DNA from: Roseateles koreensis
Lineage (GTDB): Bacteria; Pseudomonadota; Gammaproteobacteria; Burkholderiales; Burkholderiaceae_C
Direction of reading: 5' to 3'
Assembly (NCBI RefSeq): GCF_028595305.1
Contig: NZ_JAQQXS010000009.1
Location: 124,001-188,000 of the forward strand
DNA: 64,000 nucleotides
Numbering within the stretch: position 1 is the stretch's first letter; each line of letters opens with the position of its first letter. Made by a program: the position numbers and the translations under genes. The notes beneath the pieces are model-generated. The model was not told the DNA's origin. It saw nothing but the letters and a program-made list of their open reading frames with translations, and ran no database searches. This document shows positions 4,961-21,013 of the stretch, in pieces.

Positions 4961-5185
4961 GGGAATGGCCTTTCAAAAAGGGATTCAGTGACAGAGTGCA
5001 CACAGAATGGCCGGCTGCCATGACCCGCTCATGACCCGGATCGGGTGGCCCTGAGCAGTTCGGACCATGGCCTATGCCGTGCATCGCCTGCCCATGTATC
5101 GAAACATCGCGCCGCTACACTGACGACTGGCCGAGCCGTTTACCGTTCACCGTCCGGCGCATTGCGCGACTGATTGACATTCCCG

Positions 5186-6112
5186 ATGACTGATTCCCTG
5201 CAAAATTTTCTGACCCGGGCCGAAGGCCTTTTGAGCCGGCTGGAGGCCTGGCTGCCTCCGGCCACGGCTGCGGTCGATTGGTCGGCCTCGGTGGCTTTTC
5301 GCTACCGCAAGCGGGGCGGTCGTTGTGTGTTGGAGCCGGTGCGGCATGTGGCGGGCATCCGCCTGCAAGATCTGCGGGAAGTTGAGCCCCAAAAGTTGCG
5401 CCTGCTGCAGAACACCGAGCAGTTCGTCAGTGGCCGGCCCGCGAACAATGTCTTGCTGACAGGTGCACGGGGCACCGGCAAAAGCTCTTTGATCAAGGCC
5501 GTACTGAACGAATTTTCCGACCGTGGCCTGCGTTTGATCGAAGTAGACAAAGCCGATCTGGTGGAACTGCCCGATCTCATCGACCTGGTGGCCGAGCGCC
5601 CCGAGCGTTTTGTGATCTTCTGCGACGACCTCAGCTTTGATGATGGCGAGGCTGGCTACAAGGCGCTTAAATCCATCCTCGATGGGTCCGTGGCGGCGGC
5701 GAGTGAGAATGTTCTGATCTACGCCACCAGCAACCGCCGCCATCTGCTGCCCGAGCACATGCGCGACAACCTGGGCTACACCCACACCGAAGACGGTGAA
5801 GTGCATCCGGGTGAGGCGGTGGAGGAGAAAATTTCGCTCTCCGAGCGCTTTGGCCTGTGGCTGAGTTTCTATCCCTTCAGCCAGGCGGAATACCTGGCCA
5901 TCACCGCCCAGTGGCTGCGCAGCTTTGGGGTGGACGAGGCGGTGATCTTGGCCGCCCGGCAGCCCGCGCTGGTTTGGGCGCTGGAGCGTGGGTCACGCTC
6001 CGGCCGTGTGGCCTATCAGTTCGCCCGTGATTTGGCAGGGCGCGGTGGGCTCGAACACGTGGCCGCCGCGGTGGCCGACAGCACGCCACCGGAGGGGCTG
6101 GACCATGTCTGA
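5186..6112 (+). CDS. DUF815-family AAA ATPase
   Basis: ATP-binding protein of 308 residues. The Walker A motif GARGTGKS is at about residues 93-100 and Walker [11 protein letters not shown], at about 147-155. A sensor-like [13 protein letters not shown] follows, then a C-terminal lid. The whole pattern matches the DUF815 family, whose cellular role is not established. The ATG at 5186 is preferred to an upstream in-frame TTG at 5174. The stop overlaps the start of the Nudix gene by 8 bases (ATG at 6105), so the two are translationally coupled. In related genomes this ATPase also commonly neighbours a MutT-like Nudix gene. Confidence 0.8.
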
Positions 6113-6944
6113 AGCGCAACGAGAGATCGTCGATGTGGCCGTGGGCGTGCTGGTGGAGCGCGACGCTGAGGGCCGGGAAGGCCGATTCCTCCTGACCTCC
6201 CGGCCCGAGGGCAAGGTTTACGCCGGTTATTGGGAATTCCCGGGCGGCAAGCTGGAAGCTGGCGAAACCGTGGCGCAGGCGCTGGCGCGCGAGCTTCATG
6301 AGGAGTTGGGCATCACCATCGGGGCTGCGCATCCCTGGAAAGAGCTGGTGATGGACTATGCACACGCCCGCGTCCGTCTGCATTTTTGCAAGGTGTACAA
6401 CTGGGCGGGTGATTTCGAGATGCGCGAGCAACAAGCCATGGCTTGGCAAAATCTGCCGGCAACCGTCCATCCGGTGCTGCCGGGGACGGTGCCTGTGCTG
6501 GCCTGGTTTGCCGAAGAGCGAAAATTCACAGGACCCACCTACACTGAGCCCATGAATTGCCTTGACGACATCAAATGGGACGCCGCCGGCCTGGTGCCGG
6601 TGATTGCGCAAGAACACAGCTCCGGTGACGTGCTGATGTTTGCCTGGATGAACCGCGAAGCGCTGAAGCGCACCATCGAATTGGGTGAGGCGGTGTACTG
6701 GAGCCGCTCGCGCGGCAAGTTATGGCACAAGGGTGAGGAGTCGGGCCATATCCAGAAAGTGCATGAGCTACGCATGGACTGCGACAACGATGTGCTCCTG
6801 ATGCGCATCACGCAGCAAGGCCATGAACCCGGCATCGCCTGCCATACCGGCCGCCATTCCTGCTTCTATCAACGCCTTGAAAATGGCGTCTGGACAGCCA
6901 CCGAGCCGGTGCTCAAGGACCCGCAAACAATCTACAGCAAATGA
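6105..6944 (+). CDS. hisI: Nudix hydrolase fused in frame to phosphoribosyl-AMP cyclohydrolase (HisI)
   Basis: One uninterrupted frame of 279 residues encodes two complete domains. Residues 1-145 are a MutT-like Nudix enzyme with a perfect Nudix box from G48 to I70 (GX5EX7REUXEEXGU). Residues 150-279 are HisI, beginning at [10 protein letters not shown], with the PRA-CH motifs [29 protein letters not shown] and CHTGRHSC (zinc and magnesium ligands). HisI opens the ring of phosphoribosyl-AMP, the third step of histidine synthesis. The two domains are normally separate genes; HisI normally starts at the internal ATG 6552, which has no good ribosome site here. A TGA in another frame at 6545 just before that ATG means a one-base error could mimic a fusion. 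Its stop overlaps the hisE start. Confidence 0.85.
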
Positions 6945-7309
6945 TGAGTGCAACTGAAGCCGACATTCTGGCCCGCGTGGCCGCCGTGATTGAGTCCCGC
7001 AAGCCGGCCAACGGCGGCGATCCGGCCACCAGCTATGTGGCCAAGCTGTTCGACAAGGGCCTGGACGCGATCTTGAAAAAGGTGGGCGAAGAGGCTTGCG
7101 AAACAGTCATGGCCGGCAAGGACGGCGATGCGCAAAAGATCGTGTACGAAGTGGCCGACCTCTGGTTTCACTCCATGATTGCACTCGCCCACTTTGGCCT
7201 GAAACCCGAGCAGGTGCTGGTGGAATTGGCGCGCCGCGAAGGTTTGTCGGGCCTGCAGGAGTTTGCTGCCCGCAGCAAAAAGGCCGCCGAGGAAGAGCCC
7301 AATGACTGA
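6941..7309 (+). CDS. hisE: Phosphoribosyl-ATP pyrophosphatase HisE
   Basis: A 122-residue all-alpha MazG-like enzyme that hydrolyses phosphoribosyl-ATP to phosphoribosyl-AMP, the second step of histidine synthesis, feeding directly into HisI upstream. Visible motifs are [24 protein letters not shown] and [13 protein letters not shown], the family's metal-binding helices. It overlaps the end of the Nudix-HisI gene (ATGATGA; an alternative start is the adjacent ATG at 6944) and overlaps the start of hinT by 8 bases, so translation is coupled throughout. Full family length. Confidence 0.93.
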
Positions 7310-12513: not shown

Positions 12514-15006
12514 TCAGGGGCGCAAGGGCCCCTTCATCGCCGCTTCGCTTTTTTTGCTGCTGATTTCAGCCAACTGCTTGCGAGTGCGGGCCATCGCGCG
12601 TTCGAGCAGGTAGGCATTTTCAAAGGCGCGCAGGCGTTTTGCTTCGCACAGGCGTTTTAGCATGCGGGCGGTCATTGTGACCGTTTCCTGGTGCTTGGCG
12701 CCGTGGGTGAAGATGAAAAAGCTGCGGCCTTCACTGATGTGAGCCAAGCGCACTTTTTGCCAGCGCTCGCCGCTGCGCATCTGGTAAGAAAAACCCACGT
12801 GCAGGTTGTCGACCAGCAATTCGCCTTCGCTCGGCTCCGGTGCTTCAGCGGCGGCGGGCAGCCCGTCGATGCTGATGTCCACGGCTTGCAGCGCGGGTTC
12901 GGCGCTTAGATCGATGTCCAGCTCACCGTTCCAATCCACTTGTGCTTCGGTCATCAGACCCAAGCCCTGCACCTCACTGGCACTGAGGCCTTGTGCCGGG
13001 TCGACATCCGGTGACAGGCTGGACGTGGCGAGGTTCGCCACGTCTTGTTCAGTGGGCAAGGGCGCGCCGAAAACCTGGGCCAATTGCTTGTTGAGCAGAT
13101 TGGTTTCCAGAGGTGTTGGGGTGTGGCCCTTGAGTGATTCAGCGTGAGCCGGAAGCAGGGCTGCAAAGAACTCTTTTCGAGCCACCTCGGGCCAGGCGAT
13201 CAGGTCCAGGCCTTCACCCAATGTGGCCATGAGTGACGGCAATTGCGCCAAAAACACTTGACGTTCAGCCGTCCGTCCCTTGGGTTGGACGCTGATGATG
13301 AGCGCTTGCCCCAGCTTTTGAAAGCGTTGGACTCGCTCCGGTGCCCCATGGGGGTCGCGGGCCGCCCGCATGATGGCCTGGCTCCATGTGCTGGCCAGAA
13401 ATTCGCGCAAAAACTCCGGCGTGGGAACGGGCTGCAGCGTTGTGGCCAACTGGCGGGCGTAGCTTTGCTGCAGACGCAGATCAACCTCTTGGCGTGCCAG
13501 CATCTCTGGCAGGGCGCCCTGGGTTTGCAATTCTTCGTGGATTTGGCGGACGATGAACTGTTCGAGCGCGGCCAACTTGCCCTCGAAGACATCCATGCGT
13601 TCGAAGTCACCATTGACCAACTCTTCGACCAGGGCCCGCACGTGGCCTAGAAAGGATCGTCCGGGCTCGACACTGAAGTCGTCATAGGCGCAGGCGAGCG
13701 AGGCCATGCGGTTGACGAACAAGCGCACCGGATGGCGACGCTGCGAGAAAAATGTGGGGTCGCCCAAGGCGGCTCGCAGCACTGGCAGCTGCAGTCGTGC
13801 CAGCAGGCGGGCCATCTGCGGTGGCACTTTGGGGTCGGACAGCACCTGATCGAACAGACTGGCGACCACGTCAATCACCATGTGGTCCAGGCGCCCGGTT
13901 GCCGCCTGGCGCAATTCGTCGCGGTGCTGGTGAATCAGATTGGCGGGCAGATGTCCAGCCTGGCTGGGCGAGAGAAATTCATCATGCCAATCCCGGCTGC
14001 CTGTTCCTGCATGGGGGCCATACGTCGAACCGGGGCCGAGCTCCCCCCAAGCACTGGAGCCAGCGCCTGTGCTGGGGTTGTTGCTGCCTGAGTTCAGCGG
14101 GCTGGCCGCCTGAGCCAGACGGCGCAGCAGGTCCATGAGTTGCGGGTCGACTGCCCCGAGTCCGCCGACTGGGCCGGACGGATGTGCGGCTGGAGAAAAG
14201 CTGTACGCGCCGCCGCTGCCGAGGCCGCCAGTGCCAGATGGCACGCCTGCATTCAGCGCCGATGTGCCGGAAGGGCCGGCATTGCCGCCGCTGCGTGAAT
14301 CTCGCCCCAATTCGCGCCCTAAGTCAGCACCGCTGACCGAGTTGAGAGCTTGTGCCCGGCTGTTGGCGGCAGCGCCTGAGGCGGAGTCGACAGGGCGAAC
14401 TCGCAAATCCTGGGGCCGCAGGCCGCGGCTGCGAAACAGGCCCGCAATGTCGGCATAGCAGGCGCGCATCTCCTGCGCCATGGCGCGGGTTAATTCATCC
14501 ACCAGGATTTGGCGGCTTTGCGCATCGTCAGTGAGTTGGTGCACGGCGCTCAGCAGGGCCTGGCCAATCGCTTCGGGGCGAAGCGGGTGACGCTCTCCCA
14601 ACTGCAGGCCGGCCACGTAGGATTCAACCTCACGCAATTCCCATTCGCTTTGATGGCCAATGGCCAAGCCGATTCGGTCGGCCGCTACCAGCGCATCGAC
14701 CTGCTCGTCGTCCATCAGGGACAGTTCGGTCCAATTGTTTTGGACTGGGGCGCCCTTGCCCCCTGCTTTTTCCGGCCCGATCTGCTCCCGCAGGCTCTGC
14801 GCGAAACCGTGTGCAAATTGACCTTGCTGTTTGCGAAACAGGAGTTGGGCTGCCAGCAGCGCGTCCCGGCGTTTGATCATCCCGGCGGACAGGGCGGAAA
14901 GCCCCAGGCCCTCGGCACAGCGCTCGGCAGCCTGTTCGGCGGCCGTGCGAACTCGCTGGAGGGCGGTTTCCAGATGCGGGTTGAGGCGAGCGTCGGTCGA
15001 AATCAT
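12514..15006 (-). CDS. DUF1631 family protein
   Basis: A large soluble protein of 830 residues matching the DUF1631 family, typical of beta- and gammaproteobacteria and of unknown function. The N-terminal third holds the WTELSLMDDEQVDALVAADR and AIGQALLSAVHQL motifs. A low-complexity Ser/Gly/Ala linker lies at about 215-330. The helical C-terminal two thirds include DVVASLFDQVLSDPKVP, LFVNRMASLA and a final PilZ-like stretch (VGFSYQMRSGERWQKVRLAHIS). The stop lies 1 base past the convergent pdxA stop. No signal peptide or membrane segment is visible. Confidence 0.8.
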   Translation of the reverse strand: MISTDARLNPHLETALQRVRTAAEQAAERCAEGLGLSALSAGMIKRRDALLAAQLLFRKQQGQFAHGFAQSLREQIGPEKAGGKGAPVQNNWTELSLMDDEQVDALVAADRIGLAIGHQSEWELREVESYVAGLQLGERHPLRPEAIGQALLSAVHQLTDDAQSRQILVDELTRAMAQEMRACYADIAGLFRSRGLRPQDLRVRPVDSASGAAANSRAQALNSVSGADLGRELGRDSRSGGNAGPSGTSALNAGVPSGTGGLGSGGAYSFSPAAHPSGPVGGLGAVDPQLMDLLRRLAQAASPLNSGSNNPSTGAGSSAWGELGPGSTYGPHAGTGSRDWHDEFLSPSQAGHLPANLIHQHRDELRQAATGRLDHMVIDVVASLFDQVLSDPKVPPQMARLLARLQLPVLRAALGDPTFFSQRRHPVRLFVNRMASLACAYDDFSVEPGRSFLGHVRALVEELVNGDFERMDVFEGKLAALEQFIVRQIHEELQTQGALPEMLARQEVDLRLQQSYARQLATTLQPVPTPEFLREFLASTWSQAIMRAARDPHGAPERVQRFQKLGQALIISVQPKGRTAERQVFLAQLPSLMATLGEGLDLIAWPEVARKEFFAALLPAHAESLKGHTPTPLETNLLNKQLAQVFGAPLPTEQDVANLATSSLSPDVDPAQGLSASEVQGLGLMTEAQVDWNGELDIDLSAEPALQAVDISIDGLPAAAEAPEPSEGELLVDNLHVGFSYQMRSGERWQKVRLAHISEGRSFFIFTHGAKHQETVTMTARMLKRLCEAKRLRAFENAYLLERAMARTRKQLAEISSKKSEAAMKGPLRP

Positions 15007-15234
15007 GGGCGGGCAACATTGACTGTAGCGTTATCACTACAAGTCATCGCCGCAAGTATCGCCTTGATTCTCCATGACCGTGGGTGACGCAATACCTCAA
15101 AAGGGCTTGAGGTGCCAAAAGCTGACGCCTTGGCGCGGAGAATTCTGAACCCCGGCCCGCTCAATGGTGGACCAGGGTATTTTTCACACGGACTGCCTGC
15201 ATTGATTTGATCAATGAGGCCGTAGCTGAGCACT

Positions 15235-15675
15235 TTAGCGCTTCAGCGAGTCGCGAATTTCGCGCAGGAGCAGCACATCTTCCGGCGTGATTGGGGCTTC
15301 AACCGGTGCGGGTGCAGGCACTTCGGCGCGCTTGAGTCGGTTGATCTGGCGGATCATCAAGAAAATAATGAAGGCCAGGATGAGGAAGTTCAGCAGCACG
15401 GTCAGGAAGGTGCCGTAAGCGAACAAGGGAACGCCTGCCTTGACCAGGGCGTCATAAGTCATGGGGCCCTTGTAGTCTGCGGGCGGGTTAGACAATAGGA
15501 TGAAGTAGTTCGAAAAGTCCAGGCCGCCAACGACTTTGCCGATCAGCGGCATGATCAGATCCTTGACCACGGAGTCAACAATCTTGCCAAAGGCACCGCC
15601 AATGATCACGCCCACGGCGAGATCCACCACATTGCCTTTGACGGCGAATTCTTTGAACTCCGAGAAAAAACTCAT
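15235..15675 (-). CDS. mscL: Large-conductance mechanosensitive channel MscL
   Basis: A 146-residue channel protein with the MscL signature: [33 protein letters not shown] forming the N-terminal helix and first transmembrane (pore) helix, a periplasmic loop, a second transmembrane helix ([21 protein letters not shown]) and a C-terminal helical bundle. It opens under membrane tension to release solutes during osmotic downshift. It is transcribed away from the petABC operon. Confidence 0.96.
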
Positions 15676-15901
15676 TTTTGTTGCTCCGATGCCGGCGACA
15701 GGTCCGGATATTGACGAAAAGTAAGGAGGGCCAGCGTTTCCTCAAGGCATGATGTTGGCTGGGACGGACAACAATGTAGCGGTAAAAACGCTGATATTGT
15801 GGCGCGGAAGCCTGCCAATCTGCATCGCGTGGCTTGGGAGGCTTCACAGTCCGTTAGAATTCCGGGTTGCCCCCGATCAGAAGTCTCGTTTGAGGATCCT
15901 C

Positions 15902-16498
15902 ATGAGTGACCAGCAAGTGGACCACGGCAAGCGCACCTGGCTCATCGCCACGAGTTGCGCCGGTGCCGTTGGCGGTGTCGCCACCGCCGTGCCTTTCGTC
16001 AGTACTTTCGCCCCTTCGGAGCGCGCCAAAGCGGCCGGAGCCCCGGTGGAGGCTGATATCAGCGGCATCAAGCCGGGCGAAAAGTTGACCGTGGAATGGC
16101 GCGGCAAGCCAGTCTGGATCGTGCGTCGCACGCCGGAACAGCTTGCGGCTCTCTCCAAGTTCGACAATGAGCTGGCCGACCCCAACTCTCAACGTACCGC
16201 CTACCCGACGCCTGAGTACGCCCGCAATGCCGCGCGTTCCATCAAGCCCGAGTTCCTGGTGGTGGTGGGCATCTGTTCACATCTGGGTTGCTCGCCAAGC
16301 GACAAATTCCAGATGGGCGCGCAGCCTTCTCTGCCGGACGACTGGCATGGCGGCTTCCTCTGCCCGTGCCATGGCTCGACCTTTGACCTGGCCGGCCGCG
16401 TGTTCAAGAACAAGCCTGCGCCGGACAACCTTGAGGTGCCGCCGCACATGTATCTGTCCGACGCCAGGATCTTGATTGGCGAAGACAAGAAGGCTTGA
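15902..16498 (+). CDS. petA: Ubiquinol-cytochrome c reductase Rieske iron-sulfur subunit
   Basis: A 198-residue Rieske protein. The Tat-like N-terminal anchor (KRTWLIATSCAGAVGGV) precedes the cluster-binding domain. The [2Fe-2S] ligands are in CSHLGC (C125, H127) and CPCHGS (C154, H157), with C130 and C156 forming the usual disulfide. It passes electrons from ubiquinol to cytochrome c1 in the bc1 complex. ATG 15902 begins the family-conserved N-terminus; the frame runs open to 15749, but that extension is noncoding in character. First gene of petABC. Confidence 0.95.
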   Translation: MSDQQVDHGKRTWLIATSCAGAVGGVATAVPFVSTFAPSERAKAAGAPVEADISGIKPGEKLTVEWRGKPVWIVRRTPEQLAALSKFDNELADPNSQRTAYPTPEYARNAARSIKPEFLVVVGICSHLGCSPSDKFQMGAQPSLPDDWHGGFLCPCHGSTFDLAGRVFKNKPAPDNLEVPPHMYLSDARILIGEDKKA

Positions 16499-20425: not shown

Positions 20426-20761
20426 TCAGTCTTGCAATACCTTGATGCGTATGCGGGATGGGCTCAGCCCCTCGGCCTCGATCATGGCTTCAAGACGGGG
20501 CTGCAGGTGTCGTAATTTGGCGGCAACGGCGGCGTTGGTCGCCAGGAGACTCCAACCTTCCTCATCGATCGGGCCGGGTTTGACGTGTCGGCCCAGCGGC
20601 CCGGGAAGGGCGGGGGCGATGATGACCATGCGGCGATTGGATTCTTGCAGCAAGAGGCCGAGCCTGGCCAAGCCCTGATGGCTTTGCAAAGCCTGGGCAA
20701 TCGGCTGGGGGTCCGGTACAGCAAGTCCGGTTGCCTTGAAATGGGCGCGACGCATCCCCAT
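20426..20761 (-). CDS. DciA-like protein (DUF721)
   Basis: With ATG at 20761 the product is 111 residues and begins MGMRRAHFKATGL. The C-terminal half has the DUF721/DciA pattern: WSLLATNAAVAAKLRHLQPRL and the terminal strand SRIRIKVLQD. DciA proteins are the ancestral loaders of the replicative helicase DnaB in bacteria lacking DnaC; assignment here is by pattern only. The frame is open to 20998, but that extension overlaps the secA upstream region and is not conserved in character. It is divergent from secA. Confidence 0.6.
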   Translation of the reverse strand: MGMRRAHFKATGLAVPDPQPIAQALQSHQGLARLGLLLQESNRRMVIIAPALPGPLGRHVKPGPIDEEGWSLLATNAAVAAKLRHLQPRLEAMIEAEGLSPSRIRIKVLQD

Positions 20762-21013
20762 AGTGTAGTGACGCAATAGGCGTGCGGCCCGGATGCTAAA
20801 CTCCAAGAGTTTTTTTCTGGGCTGGCCGCTGGCCAAGGGAAATGGCGTTTCTGAGTTTTCAGAGATGCTGCCCTGGTTCGATCGGTCCTGAATTGCTCGC
20901 AAAACTCGAGGGCCAAGCGCTCGAGCCTGGTGCGTGCGGGGTATGACATGTGAGCCGAGAGGTTTGTGGTCGTGACCGCCGCTCCGTCCACTCGTCAAAG
21001 AATCAAACGCTGC

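Follow-up and report, generated by a model that had tools for sequence, protein, structure and literature searches.

We find that a gene of Roseateles koreensis joins a MutT-like Nudix hydrolase and the histidine enzyme HisI (phosphoribosyl-AMP cyclohydrolase) in one reading frame. It lies in the window, by which we mean the whole stretch of DNA that was analysed (64,000 nucleotides). We read it as a genuine Nudix-HisI fusion, fairly young and caught part-way, in which an inner promoter would still supply free HisI; we put the probability of this reading at about 0.72. The features concerned, numbered from the first letter of the window, are as follows.

5116–5121, forward strand: TACACT, a −10-like hexamer 70 bases before the DUF815 start, one of three in the window (6.2 expected).
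5186–6112, forward strand: DUF815 AAA+ ATPase gene (Pfam DUF815, E = 4e-102), its last 8 bases shared with the beginning of the fusion gene.
6105–6944, forward strand: Nudix-HisI fusion gene of 279 codons plus stop (279 amino acids, 31.7 kDa computed).
6105–6530, forward strand: MutT-like Nudix part, residues about 1–142 (Pfam NUDIX at 11–79, NUDIX_4 at 25–115; N-terminal part of NCBIfam PRK08999, below cut-off).
6531–6551, forward strand: linker codons GPTYTEP, from Nudix to the old HisI start, as placed by comparison with unfused relatives.
6540–6545, forward strand: TACACT, putative −10 element for a leaderless hisI transcript, judged from TANACT statistics and read as Tyr-Thr in the fusion.
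6552–6554, forward strand: retained hisI ATG, at the same position as the hisI ATG of relatives and a putative internal start of free HisI (14.9 kDa computed).
6552–6944, forward strand: HisI part, phosphoribosyl-AMP cyclohydrolase (PRA-CH, E = 2e-34; NCBIfam PRK00051, 174 bits against a cut-off of 126).
6941–7309, forward strand: hisE, a separate open reading frame (PRA-PH, E = 2e-16), overlapping the fusion gene by 4 bases.

An earlier note on this DNA had proposed an in-frame fusion here, set between a DUF815 ATPase and an overlapping hisE, and the single frame with its two complete domains and these neighbours confirms it. The Pfam NUDIX family (PF00293) matches residues 11–79 with 58.4 bits (cut-off 21.1), and MutT-like NCBIfam models match the same part below their cut-offs. 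The Nudix box, whose motif is Gx5Ex7REUxEExGU, is intact, just as the note had described it, and its signature positions are invariant in 9 of the 12 fused proteins that we identified (the nine that were aligned). Over residues 178–255 the PRA-CH profile is matched in its entirety (positions 1–74 of 74, 117.6 bits against a cut-off of 27), which with the PRK00051 match places this part in HisI (PF01502, PRK00051). D225, C226, D227, D229, C246 and C253 of the HisI part are invariant in the nine aligned proteins; we take these conserved Cys and Asp residues to be the metal site. An AlphaFold model (mean pLDDT 87, pTM 0.64) gives confident folds for both parts, with the exception of residues 248–252 and 274–279. 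Of 11 PDB sequences matched at E ≤ 1e-8, each covers one part and none spans both. We expect the Nudix part to have a MutT-like clean-up activity and the HisI part to be ordinary, the two most likely working independently.

The partner of HisI is thus a Nudix domain while hisE is a gene of its own, and the note was right to set this fusion apart from the usual HisI-HisE type. It also correctly saw no hisF upstream: hisF lies ~85 kb away on the same contig (C35:44952–45731, with HisI from C35:130552). Beyond hisE the window holds genes that we take to be a HIT-family gene and then the tat genes. The PRA-CH domain of the fusion is the sole match found in the window genome, where the same search detected no second hisI.

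Fused and separate forms both occur among relatives. The fusion protein was searched in 59 relatives and then in 18 Roseateles genomes (E ≤ 1e-30), 17 of which match; G014, a genome 79% complete, gave no match at this threshold. Three of these genomes are fused (the window genome G000, G015 and G008) and 14 have separate, adjacent Nudix and HisI genes with a stop between them. Note that G015 and G008 are close to each other, and just three fused Roseateles genomes speak for retention. A 102-residue junction piece was also searched against 399 genomes drawn from the family, giving 64 matches at E ≤ 1e-30, and loci were taken for 30. Reading of the DNA revealed further stop-free junctions in G220, G124, G156 and the genus g45, where all six genomes examined are stop-free. 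G124 (86% complete) and G156 (620 contigs) are single drafts, and their fusion is less well supported. After removal of exact repeats of the junction region, the distinct loci comprise 12 fused, 64 unfused with an adjacent Nudix gene and 56 without an adjacent Nudix gene on the fetched stretch (these 56 include L177, which carries TANACT and whose genus has Nudix-adjacent members). hisE adjoins all 12 fused genes and DUF815 precedes 11 of them, the twelfth (G156) being at a contig end. When a sample of 399 genomes from the order was searched for the junction (E ≤ 1e-33), the window genome alone was returned, at a strict threshold that would miss diverged cases.

The domain PRA-CH is single-copy in 12 of 13 genomes checked (11 fused and 2 unfused, with the fused G435 left out), and in 10 of the 11 fused ones. 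The fusion gene is therefore the only source of HisI found in those 10. The remaining genome, G339, has a fusion of the obligate type and a second PRA-CH copy in a 164-residue frame (G339:C140:97207–97434).

We read the hexamer in the linker as a putative promoter for a leaderless hisI mRNA, because of its distribution before hisI. TANACT (mostly TACACT) stands 5–10 nt before the hisI ATG in 62 of the 64 unfused Nudix-adjacent loci, although these are related by descent and so are not 62 independent cases; it is absent from this place at L038 and L045. The spacer is 6 nt in 38 loci, 7 in 21, 5 in 2 and 10 in 1, so that 59 fall at 6–7 nt. TANACT is present in just 3 of the 56 loci without an adjacent Nudix gene, and in 4 of 4 fused loci that keep the ATG (again 5–10 nt before it). 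A looser −10 pattern is found in 61/64 Nudix-adjacent, 44/56 non-adjacent and 4/4 fused loci with the ATG, against 0/64, at most 1/56 and at most 1/4 in control windows shifted by 10–60 bases, the lone matches in the latter two groups each occurring at one shift. Among non-adjacent loci, GACAAT or TAGATT lies ~6–8 bases before the hisI ATG in 40 of 56 (e.g., L057, L059, L066 and L076), and hisF is upstream on the fetched stretch in 47 of 56. Throughout the family, hisI may be served by a leaderless promoter of its own, including where it sits within a his operon.

At locus L216 (G028), a 502-residue open stretch separates Nudix from hisI at about 14253–16187 of its contig; it resembles a carotenoid oxygenase. 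TACACT still precedes the hisI ATG there, and the hexamer therefore seems to go with hisI and not with the upstream neighbour.

The spacing recurs elsewhere in the window genome. TACACT is followed by ATG within 0–24 bases 48 times, 17 of them with a spacer of 6–7 (binomial P = 8e-8, with spacers assumed equally likely). Among ATGs other than that of hisI, 14 of 16 at spacer 6–7 open a reading frame of at least 100 codons, compared with 7 of 28 at other spacers; this comparison covers 36 stretches fetched around the matches rather than all 48, and at least two of those seven frames are shared with the spacer 6–7 set. Only the spacing stands out. In the genome, TACACT with an ATG no more than 24 bases on is outnumbered by the reversed control pattern (48 versus 154). 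TACACT is likewise not enriched in the window, and TACACT-N5–8-ATG occurs there twice, a number also attained in 6 of 100 shuffles. One of the three TACACT hexamers of the window lies on the minus strand (20753–20767), 6 bases before an ATG that may be a leaderless start and that opens a frame of 109 residues next to secA.

Fusions are of two kinds. Hexamer and ATG are kept in the linker of 4 of the 12 (the Roseateles trio and G220), and in these four, the window included, HisI is probably made both free and fused, judging from the sequence. The phase in which the hexamer is read differs, being TAC ACT in the Roseateles trio and GTT ACA CTG in G220, and it seems therefore that selection acts on the DNA and not on the peptide. 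The other eight have neither hexamer nor ATG (two of them have a TTG leucine codon nearby), which makes the inner promoter dispensable. It could be argued from these eight that fused HisI is evidently sufficient, that the fusion is the only HisI product in the window genome as well and that its hexamer and ATG are inert leftovers of the intergenic stretch. Six of the eight have no other PRA-CH that we could find, G339 has its second copy and G435 was outside the check; furthermore, we looked for a −35 element and found none. We nevertheless think inert leftovers unlikely. TACACTG and ATGAATTG are identical in the three fused Roseateles genomes, in contrast to the varying bases that precede and separate them; an independent fusion (G220) retains the hexamer in another phase; and other likely gene starts in the window genome show this spacing too.

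The fusion probably arose four times, and at least three. A tree of DUF815, Nudix, HisI and HisE (76 rows, 690 columns) was built by a quick method with SH-aLRT support only, 26 of its 73 inner branches being starred. It needs four changes between separate and fused, of which the starred branches force at least three, and the fused rows form four groups: the Roseateles trio, G124 with G156, g45, and G220. Placing all fused rows in a single clade costs 177 log-likelihood units (p-AU = 2.35e-6), and we reject a single origin. On a second quick tree, of HisI and HisE (132 rows, 248 columns, SH-aLRT only), the fused label has to change five times, and at least three of these changes are forced. 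The change counts of both trees do not separate gain from loss; outgroups, together with the lost promoter and ATG, suggest that separate genes are ancestral.

The neighbourhood is older than the fusion. The order DUF815-Nudix-hisI is found in all 17 matching Roseateles genomes, fused or not, and in genomes of other genera, and adjacency must therefore have come first. This leaves without support the suggestion of the earlier note that a deletion joined two operons. The outgroups G020 and G030 also speak against it. There the genes run hisF, hisI, hisE, HIT, tat ... pet, ssp, secA, DUF815, Nudix (apart from his, DUF815 and Nudix, the names are those we presume), and Nudix is 18–20 kb downstream of hisI on the same strand; the presumed degQ alone among the placed genes is on the opposite strand, and each region was assembled from two joined stretches. 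With Nudix downstream of hisI in these outgroups and upstream in the window clade, a simple deletion is rejected as the source of adjacency. Tandem duplication with loss of alternate parts can give the new order, as can relocation of DUF815-Nudix. Whichever occurred, the rearrangement preceded the fusions, since unfused genera share the new order.

Once the genes were adjacent, the step to fusion would be short. The stretch between them is short and would hold the hisI promoter, with the hexamer overlapping or near the Nudix stop. In 12 of 61 unfused loci (61 of the 64 are covered by this count), the hexamer begins with the Nudix stop itself, as TAA-ACT or TAG-ACT (L005, L036, L041, L046, L093, L117, L119, L122, L123, L124, L138 and L140). 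Eleven of these 12 are one substitution from a window-type fusion, because their HisI frame continues that of Nudix and no other stop intervenes. A single change of such a stop, or a short deletion, would open the frame without harm to hisI. For the Roseateles trio a short deletion is as likely as a base change or likelier; in its nearest unfused relatives, G004 and G010, the gaps are longer and the hexamer is TACACT.

In the window genome, transcripts from upstream of DUF815 would carry DUF815, the fusion and hisE. In raw counts, the 150 nt ahead of DUF815 contain a TANACT at 53 of 68 loci and at 0 of 6 g45 loci. A ribosome translating Nudix would continue into HisI, and Nudix would be made only as the 31.7-kDa Nudix-HisI protein. 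A leaderless transcript giving free HisI would arise from TACACT and the hisI ATG, 6 bases apart in the linker. Loss of hexamer and ATG would have made the fusion obligate in other lineages.

Our account of why this happened repeatedly is tentative, and we hold it at somewhat less than even odds: in the family, the stop of the upstream gene and the leaderless promoter share bases or lie close, repeated Nudix-HisI fusion is a by-product, and promoter and start survive for a time as linker codons and are later lost, so that fusion here is no evidence of shared function. Under this account the fusion would be tolerated and not favoured by selection for a shared chemistry. The probable driver is gene layout and not common chemistry, and the domains are ordinary.

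The opposite view is that the two parts are linked in function, with Nudix acting on a nucleotide of the pathway or shielding HisI from damaged nucleotides, and that selection for this drove the repeated fusions. The number of origins fits this view, as do the six stop-free g45 genomes and the signature residues kept in the nine aligned proteins. We find it improbable all the same. Repeated fusion is expected from adjacency alone, and of the 76 adjacent pairs 64 are still separate; in G020 and G030 the two genes are 18–20 kb apart. Furthermore, with hisE beside every fused gene, Nudix replaces nothing obvious in the pathway. HisE catalyses the step preceding HisI, and a Nudix part standing in for it is unlikely for the same reason.

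Somewhat less probable still is that the hexamer is a translation signal and not a promoter. It lies about where a Shine-Dalgarno sequence would sit, and Shine-Dalgarno-like 4-mers before the hisI ATG number 0/64 in unfused Nudix-adjacent, 6/56 in non-adjacent and 0/4 in fused loci with the ATG. However, TANACT, GACAAT and TAGATT resemble −10 elements, and we take the hexamer to have no evident complementarity to the tail of 16S rRNA. A −10-like hexamer 6–7 nt before the ATG with no Shine-Dalgarno sequence is what would be expected of a leaderless gene. In Burkholderia cenocepacia, according to the available part of PMC4603805, leaderless genes have a TA-rich promoter motif directly upstream; the promoter consensus given there is TAnAAT, from which TACACT departs at one base.

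The chance that the frame is open through a sequencing or assembly error masking a stop before the HisI ATG is negligible: such a stop is present in 14 of the 17 Roseateles genomes, but the independent genomes G015 and G008 carry the same stop-free frame with many synonymous differences from the window (pS 0.44–0.60 in the two parts), and dN/dS against them is low across both parts and the linker. The earlier note had asked that a one-base error be excluded, given an out-of-frame TGA four bases before the HisI ATG, and proposed looking for the fusion in sister species. The TGA is indeed present (6545–6547, within TACACTGAG), and G015 and G008, at 86–88% protein identity, exclude the error; in G008 the fusion sits on a single contig of 5.17 Mb. 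Values of dN/dS are 0.07–0.08 for Nudix and 0.10–0.13 for HisI, with a linker that is stop-free throughout, and the frame is therefore neither an error nor a chance open reading frame. The note had further held that relatives with separate genes and a conserved stop would refute the fusion. This is borne out in part, since 14 of the 17 Roseateles genomes have separate genes, but what they establish is a derived fusion and not a false one.

These findings bear on how gene fusions are interpreted. Fusions are widely taken as evidence of joint protein function, and here repeated fusion has a simple structural cause at hand. Apparent intermediates survive (separate, fused with an inner promoter and fused without one), making the route to an obligate fusion directly testable. 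Gene callers should be aware that translation may genuinely begin at the inner ATG of a fusion of this kind.

As far as we could find, Nudix-HisI is a type of his fusion not previously described, while gene fusion in the histidine pathway is itself known. The word 'Nudix' does not occur in the available main text of three papers on his genes (PMC1963479, PMC10138114 and PMC8305728), and the accessible part of PMC4921024 names HisI-HisE and not Nudix-HisI. Within the available text of the open-licence literature we found no description of Nudix-HisI, and nothing on point for leaderless genes with gene fusion or for Comamonadaceae with histidine.

Several known systems invite comparison. The leaderless genes of B. 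cenocepacia, as described in the available text of PMC4603805, have an AT-rich −10-like hexamer immediately before the ATG and lack a Shine-Dalgarno sequence, as at hisI; unlike theirs, the putative hisI promoter is embedded in the coding part of a fusion gene. In HisIE, HisE is fused C-terminal to HisI, whereas here hisE is separate and the match to PRK02759 stays at 148 bits against a cut-off of 187. MutT-ThiE (PRK08999, a profile of 315 positions) has a Nudix domain of this kind with another domain after it, which we take to be ThiE/TPS. The fusion matches only positions 3–128 of that profile (138 bits against 245), and its C-terminal partner is HisI. Finally, the available part of Fani et al. 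(2007, PMC1963479) gives five known his fusions, HisI-HisE (HisIE), hisA/F, hisHF, hisNB and HIS4, none with Nudix, and states that HisIE arose more than once, often after the genes came close or overlapped. Like Nudix-HisI, the fusions in that account join a his enzyme in frame to a neighbouring gene; in them both partners are histidine enzymes, whereas in Nudix-HisI the N-terminal partner is a Nudix domain and hisE remains separate.
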